This document shows, in pieces, positions 20,541-25,291 of a stretch of 64,000 bases of DNA. How positions within the stretch are numbered: the first letter of the stretch is position 1; every line of letters starts with the position of its first letter. A program made the position numbers and the translations under genes. The notes below the pieces were generated by a model. It saw nothing but the letters and a program-made list of their open reading frames with translations, did no database searches and was not told the DNA's origin. Source of the stretch: Komagataeibacter xylinus (GTDB lineage: Bacteria > Pseudomonadota > Alphaproteobacteria > Acetobacterales > Acetobacteraceae); contig NZ_QQBI01000010.1 in assembly GCF_004302915.1 (NCBI RefSeq), positions 1-64,000 of the forward strand. The letters are read 5' to 3'.

Positions 20541-20759
20541 GGCGCCGCGGTGGCGGCTTTGTGTCAAGATTGAGGCATGTCATGTTTCCGCATGGGCATA
20601 AATCATAGTATGATGGCTGTGCCGAGTGGCCCGGTGCCCGTTGTCGCATGGCCATGATCGAATCTGGCAGCATGATGACGCGCCGGGCGGATGCCTGCCC
20701 AGGTCAGGAAAATGATCTCACATGGCGCGGTTGGTCGTGCCGATGTTCTGGAGTTTACG

Positions 20760-22949
20760 GTGGATCAGCCGAAGATTAGCGCCGATGTCCTGCTTTCTGC
20801 GATGGAGCAGGCCATTGATCCCATGGTCGTGATTGATGAGCATAACCTCATCATCTTCTTCAACACGGCAGCCGAGAAGATATGGGGCCGCTCGCGCGAA
20901 GAGGTCATGGGCCGCAATGTCAGCTGCCTCGTGCCCGAACCCGAGCGCGACCGCCATGACGACTACATCAACCGCAACCGCGAGACCGGGATCGGCCGGA
21001 TTGTCGGCACCTCGCGCGAGGTCGAATTCCGTCGCGCCAATGGCGAGTATGTCTGTGGCGAGCTGTCCATCTCGCGCGTGCAGGTGAATGATTGCGGCAG
21101 GATCTACTACATCGCGGTCATGAAGGACGTGACCGAGCCCAGCCGCCAGCGCAAGATCCTGGTGCTGCAGAATGACGTGCTCCAGGCCCTCGCATCCGAC
21201 ATGAGCATGGAGGAAGTGGGCGACCTGCTGTGCCGCCGGGCGGACAGTTTCGTGCCCGGCGCGGTTGGCGCGCTGATGCTGATCGACCGCTCGGGCAAGC
21301 TTTCGGTCAGTGCCTCGCCCTCCATGCCCAAGCGCTACCGCGCCGCACTCGACAGCATGGAACTCACCCCCGGGCAGCTCGAAACGCTGCGCGCCAACCC
21401 CGCCGCCAGCAACACCGTGGTGTGGGATGGCTACGCCTCGCTTGCCCGTTCGCTGGGGCTGGAGCGGTGCTGTTCGTCCACCATCGTCTCGCGCACGGGG
21501 CAGGTCATGGGCGTGTTCGCGCTGTACATGCGCGGCGATGAGGCCGATCTGGCCTGGGCGCAGCGCGTGGTCTCGACCAGCATGCCGTTCTGTGCGCTGG
21601 CCATCGAGCAGAGCGAGACGCGCCAGCATATTGCCCAGCTTTCCAATTTCGACAGCCTGACCGGGCTGCTCAACCGCACCTCGCTGCACAATATCATCGA
21701 GCGCCTGATCATGCGCGGCGGCGACAGCCAGTTCTCGCTGTTCATGGTCGATATCGACCGCTTCCGCGATATCAACGACGCGCTTGGCCATGTGAACGCC
21801 GACCGCTTCCTCATCGAGATCGGCCGCCGCATCCGCCATCTGGTCAAGGATGAATACATTGTCAGCCGCTCCGGTGGCGATGAGTTCATCATCGTCGTGC
21901 CCGAATGCTCGCATGAGCGCGCCGAGAAGTTTGCCGAGAACCTGATCAACGCCATCGCCAAGCCGCTGCAGGTGGGCGAGAACACGCTCAGCATCTCGTG
22001 CTGCGTTGGCATCAGCACCTTCCCCGCCAACGGGCCGGACAGCGAATCCCTGCTCAGCCATGCCGATGCCGCCACCCGCCAGGCCAAGGAGGACGGGCGC
22101 GGCCTGTTCCGCTTCGCCGGCCAGGAAAAGAACCAGGTGGCGCAGGACCGGCTGGTGCTGGGCTCGGCGCTGCGCGATTCGCTCTCCAAGGGCATGCTCA
22201 ACCTGCATTACCAGCCGCAGGTCGAGACCATGACCGGCGGGCTTTACGGGGTGGAGGCACTCTCGCGCTGGCACCACCCCACGCTGGGCAACATCTATCC
22301 CTCCCGCTTTATTGCCGTGGCGGAGGAAACCGGGCAGATCGAGGCCATTGGCCGCTGGTCGCTTGAGGAAGCGTGCAGCCAGATGGTGAAGTGGGACCGC
22401 GACGGCGTGCGGGTGCCGACCGTGGCGGTCAACCTCTCTGCCGTGCATTTCCGCAATCGCGGCCTGCCCGAGCACATCGCCAACCTGCTCAAGCACCATG
22501 GCCTGACGCCGGACCGCCTGACGGTGGAAATAACCGAGAGCGTGATGATGGACAGCAGCAGCGAGACCGAGGAGGTGCTGCATGCCATCCGCAGGCTCGA
22601 TGTCGGGCTGTCGATGGATGATTTCGGCACCGGCTACTCCTCGCTCTCGCGCCTGACCCGCCTGCCGCTGACCGAGATCAAGATCGACCGCAGCTTCATC
22701 AACGATTTCGAGCATGATACCAACGCTCAGGCCGTGACCATGGCGGTAATCGGCATCGGCTCGCGGCTGGGCATGACGGTGGTGACCGAAGGCGTGGAAA
22801 CCGAGCAGCAGTGGCGCCTTCTGGAGGAATTGCATTGCGATGTGATGCAGGGCTATCTTTTCTCCAGGCCATTACCCCCAGCGGAACTGGAAAAATGGTT
22901 CCGCGAGCGGCAGGAGCGTGGCTCTTTCCTCATTCCAACGACGGCATAG
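20760..22949 (+). CDS. PAS-GGDEF-EAL c-di-GMP phosphodiesterase, PdeA/Dos-like
   Basis: 729 residues. N-terminal PAS (about 8-130) close to the heme PAS of K. xylinus PdeA1 and FixL, including AAEKIWGRSREEVMGRNVS and RDRHDDYINRNRETG, where the His aligns with the heme ligand. A GAF-like middle (about 150-310) precedes GGDEF (SRSGGDEF, no RxxD inhibitory site) and EAL, which is intact: GVEALSRW, AVNLSAVHF, VEITESV, MDDFGTGYSSL, KIDRSF, TEGVE. It is probably an oxygen-sensing c-di-GMP hydrolase. The GTG at 20760 has GGAG six bases before it and gives the PdeA1-like N-terminus; an ATG at 20691 is possible. Confidence 0.9.
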   Translation: MDQPKISADVLLSAMEQAIDPMVVIDEHNLIIFFNTAAEKIWGRSREEVMGRNVSCLVPEPERDRHDDYINRNRETGIGRIVGTSREVEFRRANGEYVCGELSISRVQVNDCGRIYYIAVMKDVTEPSRQRKILVLQNDVLQALASDMSMEEVGDLLCRRADSFVPGAVGALMLIDRSGKLSVSASPSMPKRYRAALDSMELTPGQLETLRANPAASNTVVWDGYASLARSLGLERCCSSTIVSRTGQVMGVFALYMRGDEADLAWAQRVVSTSMPFCALAIEQSETRQHIAQLSNFDSLTGLLNRTSLHNIIERLIMRGGDSQFSLFMVDIDRFRDINDALGHVNADRFLIEIGRRIRHLVKDEYIVSRSGGDEFIIVVPECSHERAEKFAENLINAIAKPLQVGENTLSISCCVGISTFPANGPDSESLLSHADAATRQAKEDGRGLFRFAGQEKNQVAQDRLVLGSALRDSLSKGMLNLHYQPQVETMTGGLYGVEALSRWHHPTLGNIYPSRFIAVAEETGQIEAIGRWSLEEACSQMVKWDRDGVRVPTVAVNLSAVHFRNRGLPEHIANLLKHHGLTPDRLTVEITESVMMDSSSETEEVLHAIRRLDVGLSMDDFGTGYSSLSRLTRLPLTEIKIDRSFINDFEHDTNAQAVTMAVIGIGSRLGMTVVTEGVETEQQWRLLEELHCDVMQGYLFSRPLPPAELEKWFRERQERGSFLIPTTA

Positions 22950-22960
22950 AGCATGTGGTG

Positions 22961-23001
22961 CCCCGCGCATGGTGTTGGCGTTCTGGTGCCATGCGTTGGG
23001 G
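22961..23001 (+). promoter_or_regulatory. hairpin between the two c-di-GMP genes
   Basis: CCCC-GC-GCATGG pairs with CCATGC-GTT-GGGG around a loop of 16 bases. It lies 12 bases after the PDE stop and 59 before the next gene. No T tract follows, so attenuation or mRNA stability control is as likely as termination. Confidence 0.4.
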
Positions 23002-23059
23002 CGGTTTGAGTTCATGAAGCATAACAGTTTGTCTTTTATTACGGATTCCAGGCGGGAAC

Positions 23060-24784
23060 ATGGCATTGCAACACGATGATCGGCTGCGGGCCCTGACGCA
23101 TCAGGATGCGGATTTCTGGGCTGATCTGGTTGATAATGTCCTCATTGTCGCGATTACGGATAGCGAGGGGGTCATCACCTATGTCAATGACCGCTTCTGC
23201 GAGATAAGCCAGTACTCGCGCGAGGAGCTGGTGGGCTCGACGCACCGGATCGTCAATTCCGGTTATCATGATGCTGATTTCTTCCGCGATCTGTACCGCA
23301 CCATCAAGGCGGGGCAGCTGTGGCGCGGCAATATCTGCAACCGTGCCAAGGATGGGTCGCTGTACTGGGTGGCCACCACCATCATCCCCAAGATCGACCG
23401 GCAGGGCACGATCACGGGGTACGTGGCCAGCCGGTTCGAGATTACCGAACTCATGAACACGCGCGACCGGCTGTGTGAACTGGCCGAGACCGATACCCTG
23501 ACCGGGCTGCTCAACCGTGGTGGCTTCAACACCGCGCTGGCCGATGAGATCGCGCGCTGCCGCGAGCCGGGTATGACCGCCCACCCGGCACTTGCCATGT
23601 TCGACCTTGATGGTTTCAAGCAGATCAATGACGTGCACGGCCACCATGCGGGTGACATCGTGCTGCGCGCCATCGCCTCGCGGCTGATCGAACTCACCCA
23701 CCCCGATGATCCGGTCAGCCGGCTTGGCGGCGACGAGTTTGCCGTCATCCTGCACCGCACGCTCGAGGATGTATCGCTCGAGCGGTACATGGACCGCCTG
23801 CAGGCCATCCTTGAGCGCCCCATCGATATCGAGACGGTAACGGTCAGCGTTGCGGGCAGCATTGGCGCGGTGCTGCTTGATGGCACCGACACGATGGAAG
23901 ACGTGCAGAAAAACGCCGACATGGCCATGTATGCCGCCAAGCGCGCGGGCGGCAAGCAGTCGCAGATGTTCACCAAGAACCTGCGCGAGCGTGCGCAGGC
24001 GCGTGTCTCGATCCTGAGCGAGGCGCGGTGCGGGGTCGTGCGCAACCAGTTCGAGGTCTATTACCAGCCGATCGTGAACTGCAACACGATGGAGGTGGAC
24101 CAGATCGAGGCGCTGCTGCGCTGGCAGCACCCCGAGCGCGGGCTGCTCGCGGCGGAAGACTTCTCCGACGTGTTTACCGATGCCGGGCTGGCCCAGGCGA
24201 TGGGGCCGCGTATGATCGAGGCGTTCCGGCGCGATGTGTGCATGTGGAACGAGAAGGGCCAGCCGCCCCGCCAGCTTGCCATCAACCTCTCGCGCATGGA
24301 CCTGATCCGTGATGACTACCAGCGCGAGCTTGAGGAATCGCTGCGGCGCTTCAACATGTCACCTGACAGCTTCGTGCTGGAAGTGACCGAAGCCATGCTG
24401 CATGGCCGCCGGGCCGAGCAGGGCATCCGCAACCTGCGTGAACTGGCGCGGGCGGGTTTCCGTATCGCGCTCGACAATTTCGGCAAGGGCATCACGGTGC
24501 TGAACCACCTGCGCGAGCTGCCGTTCTCGCAGGTCAAGATCGACCAGAGCATGGTGGCGAACATCGTGGGCAACCCCGATGCCTGCATGGTCCTGTCCAG
24601 CCTGATCGACATGGGGCAGGGCTTCAACATGGAAGTCACGGTCGAGGGGGTTGAAAACCGCGAGCAGTTTGATCTCGTCAAGGCGCTCAGGCCCGAGCGC
24701 ATCCAGGGCTTCTTTGTTTCCTCGGCGCTGTCCTCGCAGGACATTCTCAAGCTGCCTGCCCGTTTTGAAGGGGTGACGCTGTGA
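23060..24784 (+). CDS. PAS-GGDEF-EAL protein, diguanylate cyclase (Dgc-like)
   Basis: 574 residues. The N-terminal PAS (about 15-130) has NICNRAKDGSLYWVATTIIP, the signature of FAD-binding PAS domains such as Aer and NifL; K. xylinus DGC2 has such a domain. GGDEF is intact (SRLGGDEFAVIL) with TDTLTGLLNRGGF at its start; the position of the RxxD inhibitory site reads HPDD. EAL keeps QIEALLRW, AINLSRMD, LEVTEAM, KIDQSM and VEGVEN, but the metal-binding DDFGTG is DNFGKG, so hydrolysis may be weak. Together with the upstream PDE it forms a cdg-type operon. Confidence 0.9.
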   Translation: MALQHDDRLRALTHQDADFWADLVDNVLIVAITDSEGVITYVNDRFCEISQYSREELVGSTHRIVNSGYHDADFFRDLYRTIKAGQLWRGNICNRAKDGSLYWVATTIIPKIDRQGTITGYVASRFEITELMNTRDRLCELAETDTLTGLLNRGGFNTALADEIARCREPGMTAHPALAMFDLDGFKQINDVHGHHAGDIVLRAIASRLIELTHPDDPVSRLGGDEFAVILHRTLEDVSLERYMDRLQAILERPIDIETVTVSVAGSIGAVLLDGTDTMEDVQKNADMAMYAAKRAGGKQSQMFTKNLRERAQARVSILSEARCGVVRNQFEVYYQPIVNCNTMEVDQIEALLRWQHPERGLLAAEDFSDVFTDAGLAQAMGPRMIEAFRRDVCMWNEKGQPPRQLAINLSRMDLIRDDYQRELEESLRRFNMSPDSFVLEVTEAMLHGRRAEQGIRNLRELARAGFRIALDNFGKGITVLNHLRELPFSQVKIDQSMVANIVGNPDACMVLSSLIDMGQGFNMEVTVEGVENREQFDLVKALRPERIQGFFVSSALSSQDILKLPARFEGVTL

Positions 24785-25230
24785 GCGACGACACCCCCCG
24801 CACGGTGGCCGCGCGCATTGGCGATGACCTGCCGCGCGTGGACGTGATTGGCCTGGCCAATACGCGGCGCATCATGCATGCGGAGCGCCATAATGATGGC
24901 GCGCGCATGCCGCTGTTCATTCCCACGGCCTCATGGGCGCGGTTGCTGGAGCTGCATTGCACGGGGGAGGGCGACCGGCCCCGCCTCGCGCCCTCGCGCG
25001 TCATGGACGGGCTGGAGCGTGCCCTTGGCCGTATCATGACCGAGGTGGTGCGCCACGATGCGGCGCAGGACGCGCCGCTGCGCCCGGCCTATGAAGTCAC
25101 ATCCGACCTGTTCGGGGCGGAAGGGCCGGTCGAGATCCGCATGCTCGTGGACCGCACGACCGGTGTTGCCTGCATGCTGGCCGGGCCGCCTGCGGATATG
25201 GCGGCGCTGCCGCTCGAGATGACTTCCTGA
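24781..25230 (+). CDS. unknown protein coupled to the c-di-GMP operon
   Basis: 149 residues, no family recognised. The GTG start at 24781 overlaps the cyclase stop as GTGA, so the two are co-translated. It has no signal peptide or membrane helix. Visible features: an acidic N-terminus, LFIPTASWARLLELHC, VMDGLERALGRIMTEVVRH, and a beta-rich C-terminal half with EVTSDLFGAEGPVEIRMLV. The tight coupling suggests a function tied to c-di-GMP signalling (for example a regulator or partner of the cyclase), which is inference from context only. Confidence 0.75.
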   Translation: MSDDTPRTVAARIGDDLPRVDVIGLANTRRIMHAERHNDGARMPLFIPTASWARLLELHCTGEGDRPRLAPSRVMDGLERALGRIMTEVVRHDAAQDAPLRPAYEVTSDLFGAEGPVEIRMLVDRTTGVACMLAGPPADMAALPLEMTS

Positions 25231-25234
25231 TTAT

Positions 25235-25291
25235 AAAAAGCTTCAGGTAATGCCGCCTTTTTGGAAAAAAAGGCGGCACCCAAAAACTTTT
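25235..25291. repeat. intergenic palindromic repeat, copy 4
   Basis: AAAAAGCTTCAGGTAATGCC, then GCCGCCTTTTTGG and AAAAAAAGGCGGC, then ACCCAAAAACTTTT. Lies between converging genes (24781 and 25290). Confidence 0.75.

Follow-up and report, generated by a model that had tools for sequence, protein, structure and literature searches.

The DNA analysed here (hereafter the window) is a stretch of 64,000 nucleotides that opens contig NZ_QQBI01000010.1 of Komagataeibacter xylinus, and the part under study is a span of three same-strand open reading frames (ORFs) of 752, 574 and 149 amino acids, referred to below as pdeA, dgc and orf3 (Table 1). Pfam recognizes PAS, GGDEF and EAL domains in both large proteins, which, together with the presence of three such pairs in the genome, bears out the view of the initial annotation that this tandem arrangement is a pdeA-dgc pair of the cdg type. 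The best NCBIfam model for the predicted phosphodiesterase (PDE) is DosP, with a score of 707.8 bits, below the cut-off of 857. Its start codon is ambiguous: position 20760, previously taken as the start, is indeed an in-frame GTG, but it is codon 24 of an ORF that opens at 20691, and either position may be where translation begins; in six of the 17 PdeA sequences compared the match extends to codon 1. The domain reading PAS-GGDEF-EAL proposed for this protein was correct but overlooked that the PAS and GGDEF domains are separated by a GAF-like domain, which is seen as a match to GAF_2 (E value 5.7e-5, below the Pfam cut-off) and in a structural model of residues 20-310 (pLDDT 70.0), whose best match was DosP and which also matched phytochrome PAS-GAF structures.

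Table 1. Genes, diagnostic codons and the hairpin of the pdeA-dgc-orf3 locus (positions in the window)
Feature	Coordinates	Strand	Description and basis
pdeA (probably pdeA2)	20691..22949	+	752-aa PAS - GAF-like - GGDEF - EAL c-di-GMP phosphodiesterase; Pfam, NCBIfam
His89 codon	20955..20957	+	predicted to be the proximal heme ligand; corresponds to His77 of DosP in the alignment
Thr107-Ser-Arg109 codons	21009..21017	+	Thr at DosP Met95 position, Arg at Arg97 position
dgc (probably dgc2)	23060..24784	+	574-aa PAS-GGDEF-EAL diguanylate cyclase; DD pair of EAL replaced by DN
Tyr79 codon	23294..23296	+	at F-alpha Trp position of MmoS and Aer; alignment
Asn94 codon	23339..23341	+	number matches FAD-contacting Asn94 of AxDGC2; kept in 18/18 rows
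orf3	24781..25230	+	149 aa; family nearly confined to acetic acid bacteria; GTG start, 4-nt overlap with dgc stop
Strong hairpin	25251..25278		3' of orf3, between convergent genes; z -4.5 on + strand, -5.5 on - strand

The hairpin behind orf3 is possibly the end of the transcript; it was absent from the output of a terminator scan, which gave eight sites in the region compared to 3.0 expected. A promoter scan of the same region found none, with 0.9 expected by chance.

In the 3.63-Mb genome of this organism, 15 EAL matches were detected. Six of them belong to pdeA-dgc pairs, of which there are three, on contigs C3 (the window pair), C11 and C17. The PDEs of these pairs are 66-76% identical to one another and the cyclases 55-57%. 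In addition, other EAL genes of the genome occur in tandem, three in a row on C46 (L038) and two on C27 (L039). According to PMC4646962 and PMC6667682, cdg operons have pdeA upstream of dgc and are present as three pairs per genome, of which only cdg1 is accompanied by a Crp/Fnr gene (upstream) and an Rrf2 gene (downstream). The window pair shows the same gene order on one strand, both products having the PAS-GGDEF-EAL architecture, and is one of three homologous pairs. The C17 pair, preceded by a Crp-type gene and followed by two Rrf2 genes, fits the description of cdg1, which leaves cdg2 or cdg3 for the window pair, flanked as it is by an acyltransferase gene and orf3. The two Rrf2 genes behind dgc1 lie in tandem on the minus strand of C17 (L037, 1295-1777 and 2040-2456); the published accounts, in the excerpts consulted, name one (cdg1d).

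When the first PAS domain was compared to the solved heme domains of DosP, the alignment was ungapped around the ligand, with H89 at the position of the axial His, Thr107 at that of Met95 and Arg109 at that of Arg97 (DosP residue numbers follow an excerpt of PMC4263535). These three residues are kept in all 17 PdeA sequences, a set from which an eighteenth (L083) was left out because its locus is cut and the match is the cyclase, and in which L064 and L089 represent the same genome. According to PMC10468136, heme binding in the FixL/DosP group depends chiefly on the F-alpha His, and this residue is present here as H89. The earlier assignment of a heme-type PAS with a His ligand is supported: the axial His, whose absence from a structure-based alignment would have spoken against it, is retained. 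The PAS domain of the PDE is predicted on these grounds to bind heme and to sense O2.

Catalytic potential was judged from nine positions known from EAL structures. The window PDE has all nine, as do 15 of the 17 PdeA sequences. The two N. cocois sequences end at residue 662, short of the last four of these positions. In one of them (L089, 5833-7773) this is where the match ends, while the ORF in L064, from the same genome, has 679 amino acids, and either a true truncation or a sequencing error may be involved. The GGDEF motif of the PDE is also intact (GGDEY in Novacetimonas), and a second activity of this enzyme via the GGDEF domain is conceivable.

The PAS domain of the cyclase could be aligned to the PAS of MmoS (3ewk) without gaps over 101 residues (E value 2.2e-45). 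Its KDGSLYWV loop had been regarded as FAD-type. The loop alone is no proof of FAD, and two residues of the domain gave a divided answer. On the one hand, the Asn of the N-R-(A/R)-KDG stretch (N94) is present in all 18 cyclase rows, and Asn94 of AxDGC2 is reported to contact FAD (PMC12540587, in excerpt). On the other hand, the F-alpha Trp, given as the primary FAD determinant in the accessible part of PMC10468136, is missing: the corresponding position, identified by alignment to MmoS and Aer, is occupied by Tyr79 in the window cyclase and by Tyr in all 18 cdg cyclase rows (L036, L037, L064, L065 and L076-L089). Since AxDGC2 is reported to bind FAD, a Tyr at the Trp position may serve in FAD binding, provided that AxDGC2 shares it. 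FAD binding by the cyclase PAS is predicted, and the Tyr79 observation matters for the recognition of FAD-PAS domains from sequence. The GGDEF domain of the cyclase is intact. The DD pair of its EAL domain (in the DDFGTG motif) has become DN in the window cyclase and altogether in 17 of the 18 rows, whereas the C17 cyclase retains DD but has lost another Glu, a pattern that agrees with cyclases having an inactive EAL domain.

As to which of the two remaining operons the window represents, cdg2 is favoured by the length of the cyclase, 574 amino acids, which we take to be the length of AxDGC2; the other two cyclases of the genome have 578 and 580 amino acids. The window pair is therefore probably cdg2. 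It would be rather surprising, though it is possible, if the pair were cdg3, in which case AxDGC2 would be a paralogue and FAD binding by the window cyclase would have no published test. The residue numbering does not help here, since N94 and the numbers around it are common to all three cyclases. For the same reason, N94 was rejected as a proof that the window cyclase is AxDGC2.

The two sensors had also been supposed to give opposed inputs to c-di-GMP. This part of the initial annotation was not sustained by the published relatives: AxPDEA1 is reported to be inhibited by O2, and AxDGC2 to be activated when its FAD is oxidised (PMC4646962, PMC12405394, PMC8846402, PMC12540587), the kcat of AxDGC2 with oxidised FAD being 7.8-fold that of the reduced form (PMC12540587, PMC4646962, PMC8846402). 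The opposed-input logic is therefore unsupported, and oxygen would raise c-di-GMP both ways; by analogy, it is the enzymes that are opposed, while their inputs should be concordant. Opposed inputs would suit the opposite activities of the two enzymes as well as the behaviour of DosP, the nearest solved PDE, which is activated by O2 in the part of PMC4263535 available, but the window PDE is 66% identical to the C17 (cdg1) PDE and, like it, lacks Met95 of DosP. Together with the reported responses of AxPDEA1 and AxDGC2, this makes opposed inputs very improbable. A rise of c-di-GMP in oxygen through both inputs fits pellicle growth at the air surface. Moreover, the same heme and FAD residues are found in all three pairs of the genome, and such sensing is thus not special to the window operon.

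The feature that distinguishes this operon is orf3, which starts with GTG and shares its first four bases (GTGA) with the end of dgc. In 14 named relatives, read by hand, the two genes overlap in 12 (by 4 nt in 11 of them and by 8 nt in one), and gaps of 8 and 11 nt separate them in the other two. The nearest named relatives of orf3, at 93% identity, are from K. nataicola, K. melomenusus and K. xylinus CGMCC 21569. A coupled unknown gene had been noted here before. The 4-nt overlap agrees with the coupling, and the window protein had no match above the curated cut-offs in Pfam, NCBIfam or PHROGs. Two outgroup members gave one sub-cut-off match each, to different families. The structural model (pLDDT 65.7) is too weak to suggest a fold and had no Foldseek match at an E value of 0.001; the top hit of VIA-align 2 (Z 3.7), a chain of an EF-Tu/CdiA/CdiI entry, was judged not meaningful and set aside.

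The distribution of orf3 is narrow. A single-sequence search detected it in all 19 genomes of the genus and in one of 41 others, and an alignment-based search in 63 of 397 Acetobacteraceae genomes, belonging to 15 of 102 genera, with one match per genome. Among 385 genomes of the class, clear matches were limited to the window genome and one other Acetobacteraceae genome; a weak partial match outside the family in this sample (E value 2.5e-4) was taken as chance. Twelve positions, including a DLF stretch, D124 and C131, are invariant in 11 divergent members. Omega values are 0.09-0.23 in comparison with 13 congeners, and orf3 is under purifying selection. A flagellar role was also considered, as fliJ/fliI-like genes (named by eye) flank orf3 in some outgroups, and was dismissed: the window genome has no FliH match yet retains orf3.

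The chromosomal place of orf3 differs between genera. In Komagataeibacter and Novacetimonas the order is acyltransferase-pdeA-dgc-orf3, with dgc directly upstream of orf3 in 16 of 16 loci and pdeA present in 15 (one locus is cut by the contig end before pdeA, and two loci are from the same genome). By contrast, in the 11 other genera examined, of 13 that have the gene, orf3 always follows an aminopeptidase gene, from which a short gene separates it in some cases. A CtrA-like gene starts within 2.4 kb downstream in 10 of the 11. These neighbours were grouped by blastp clusters; family scans, run for the L040 members only, identified the aminopeptidase as Pfam M29 and gave CtrA as the best model for the regulator (321 bits, below the cut-off of 350). 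Contig C6 of the window genome carries the aminopeptidase gene and the one next to it, and C46 the ctrA-like block, both without orf3, which means that orf3 has changed its place. As the aminopeptidase site has a wider range among genera, it is likely to be the older one, and the move would have been from the aminopeptidase/ctrA side to dgc. The CtrA-like regulator of the window genome itself (L093, 8818-9606, on C46) shares only ~55% identity with its counterparts in two other acetic acid genera, whereas its FtsH-like neighbour (named by eye) reaches about 81-83%.

The moved orf3 is also more diverged than the aminopeptidase and GlmM of the old neighbourhood. Its identity to the outgroup proteins is only 23-29%, compared to a mean of 43% (34.5-57.1%) among the outgroup proteins themselves, and little or no such gap is seen for the aminopeptidase (65-73% vs. 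a mean of 70.3%) or GlmM (68-75% vs. 72.6%). In the phylogenetic tree, the moved orf3 clade is set apart by a branch that has full support and a length of 1.84 changes per site, part of which may belong to the other side because the root is the midpoint. This tempo is compatible with a new role as well as with constraint that was relaxed for a time; the latter could also account for the fast divergence, given the omega of 0.42 in the comparison with N. cocois.

Taken together, the explanation that we consider best, with good though not full confidence, is a cdg operon, probably cdg2, that couples an O2-responsive heme PDE to a redox-responsive FAD cyclase, with both inputs acting in the same direction and with a co-translated orf3 that moved in and diverged. 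The heme PAS of the PDE would sense O2, which is expected to shut the enzyme off, and the FAD PAS of the cyclase would sense the redox state, with the highest activity expected for oxidised FAD, such that oxygen and an oxidised cytoplasm would raise c-di-GMP and activate cellulose synthase. The third gene, probably translated together with the cyclase, would derive from a one-copy acetic acid bacterial family that lies elsewhere beside M29 aminopeptidase and ctrA-like genes, and may have joined the operon and diverged strongly in the ancestry of Komagataeibacter and Novacetimonas.

What orf3 contributes is a matter of two main readings. Because its translation overlaps dgc in most of the named relatives, its product may be synthesized alongside the cyclase as its partner, and a present role as partner or modulator of the cyclase is preferred. 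There is nevertheless a real chance, somewhat short of even, that orf3 is a passenger, an acetic acid bacterial house gene brought behind dgc by a rearrangement, co-translated but unrelated to c-di-GMP, and that the sensor pair has no need of it to function as described in the literature. Such an origin would agree with the occurrence of the family, one copy per genome, in 13 genera where dgc is not its neighbour (11 examined), with cdg1 and the C11 pair, which have no such gene behind dgc, and with the lack of any family or fold link to signalling in Pfam, NCBIfam, PHROGs and the structure comparison. It would explain less well why the overlap with dgc has been retained in 12 of the 14 relatives and why the strong divergence is specific to the moved line while the old neighbours changed normally. 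Similarly, across 150 genomes cyclases >70% identical to the window dgc occur only in the two genera with the moved orf3, the ranges of the two genes being the same. The role as cyclase partner is ranked only slightly above that of an unrelated house gene. A bolder version, which we regard as speculative and rather unlikely, is that orf3 is a new kind of c-di-GMP regulator, which left its ctrA-side locus, was captured by a redox-sensing cyclase gene in the lineage of the principal cellulose-producing genera and evolved there into a co-translated partner that adjusts the activity or the placement of the cyclase. Should orf3 act on the cyclase, a step that controls cellulose production would have been overlooked in an operon family that is among the most thoroughly studied of its field.

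The sensor pair itself is a known system. The cdg1, cdg2 and cdg3 operons of Komagataeibacter (Acetobacter) xylinus were reportedly described by Tal in 1998, AxPDEA1 is said to have been recognized as a heme-PAS phosphodiesterase by Chang in 2001, and AxDGC2 reportedly as a FAD-PAS diguanylate cyclase by Qi in 2009. The window PDE shares with AxPDEA1 and DosP the axial His, the distal Arg and the domain order, in which a GAF-like domain lies ahead of GGDEF, but it differs from DosP in having Thr107 instead of Met95, whereas DosP carries a second PAS and the opposite O2 sign. The cyclase shares Asn94, by number, with AxDGC2; within the FAD-PAS comparison set of MmoS, Aer and NifL, it differs from MmoS and Aer in that their F-alpha Trp is a Tyr here and in all the cdg cyclases compared. 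A literature search covering article passages, those of Tal 1998 not among them, found no third cdg2 gene in print, and orf3 is not claimed to be unreported. In comparison with cdg2 and cdg3, which have two genes each in the review accounts as excerpted, the window operon has a third gene overlapping dgc, and it is this moved, overlapping and conserved gene that adds something, of modest novelty, to an already known pair.
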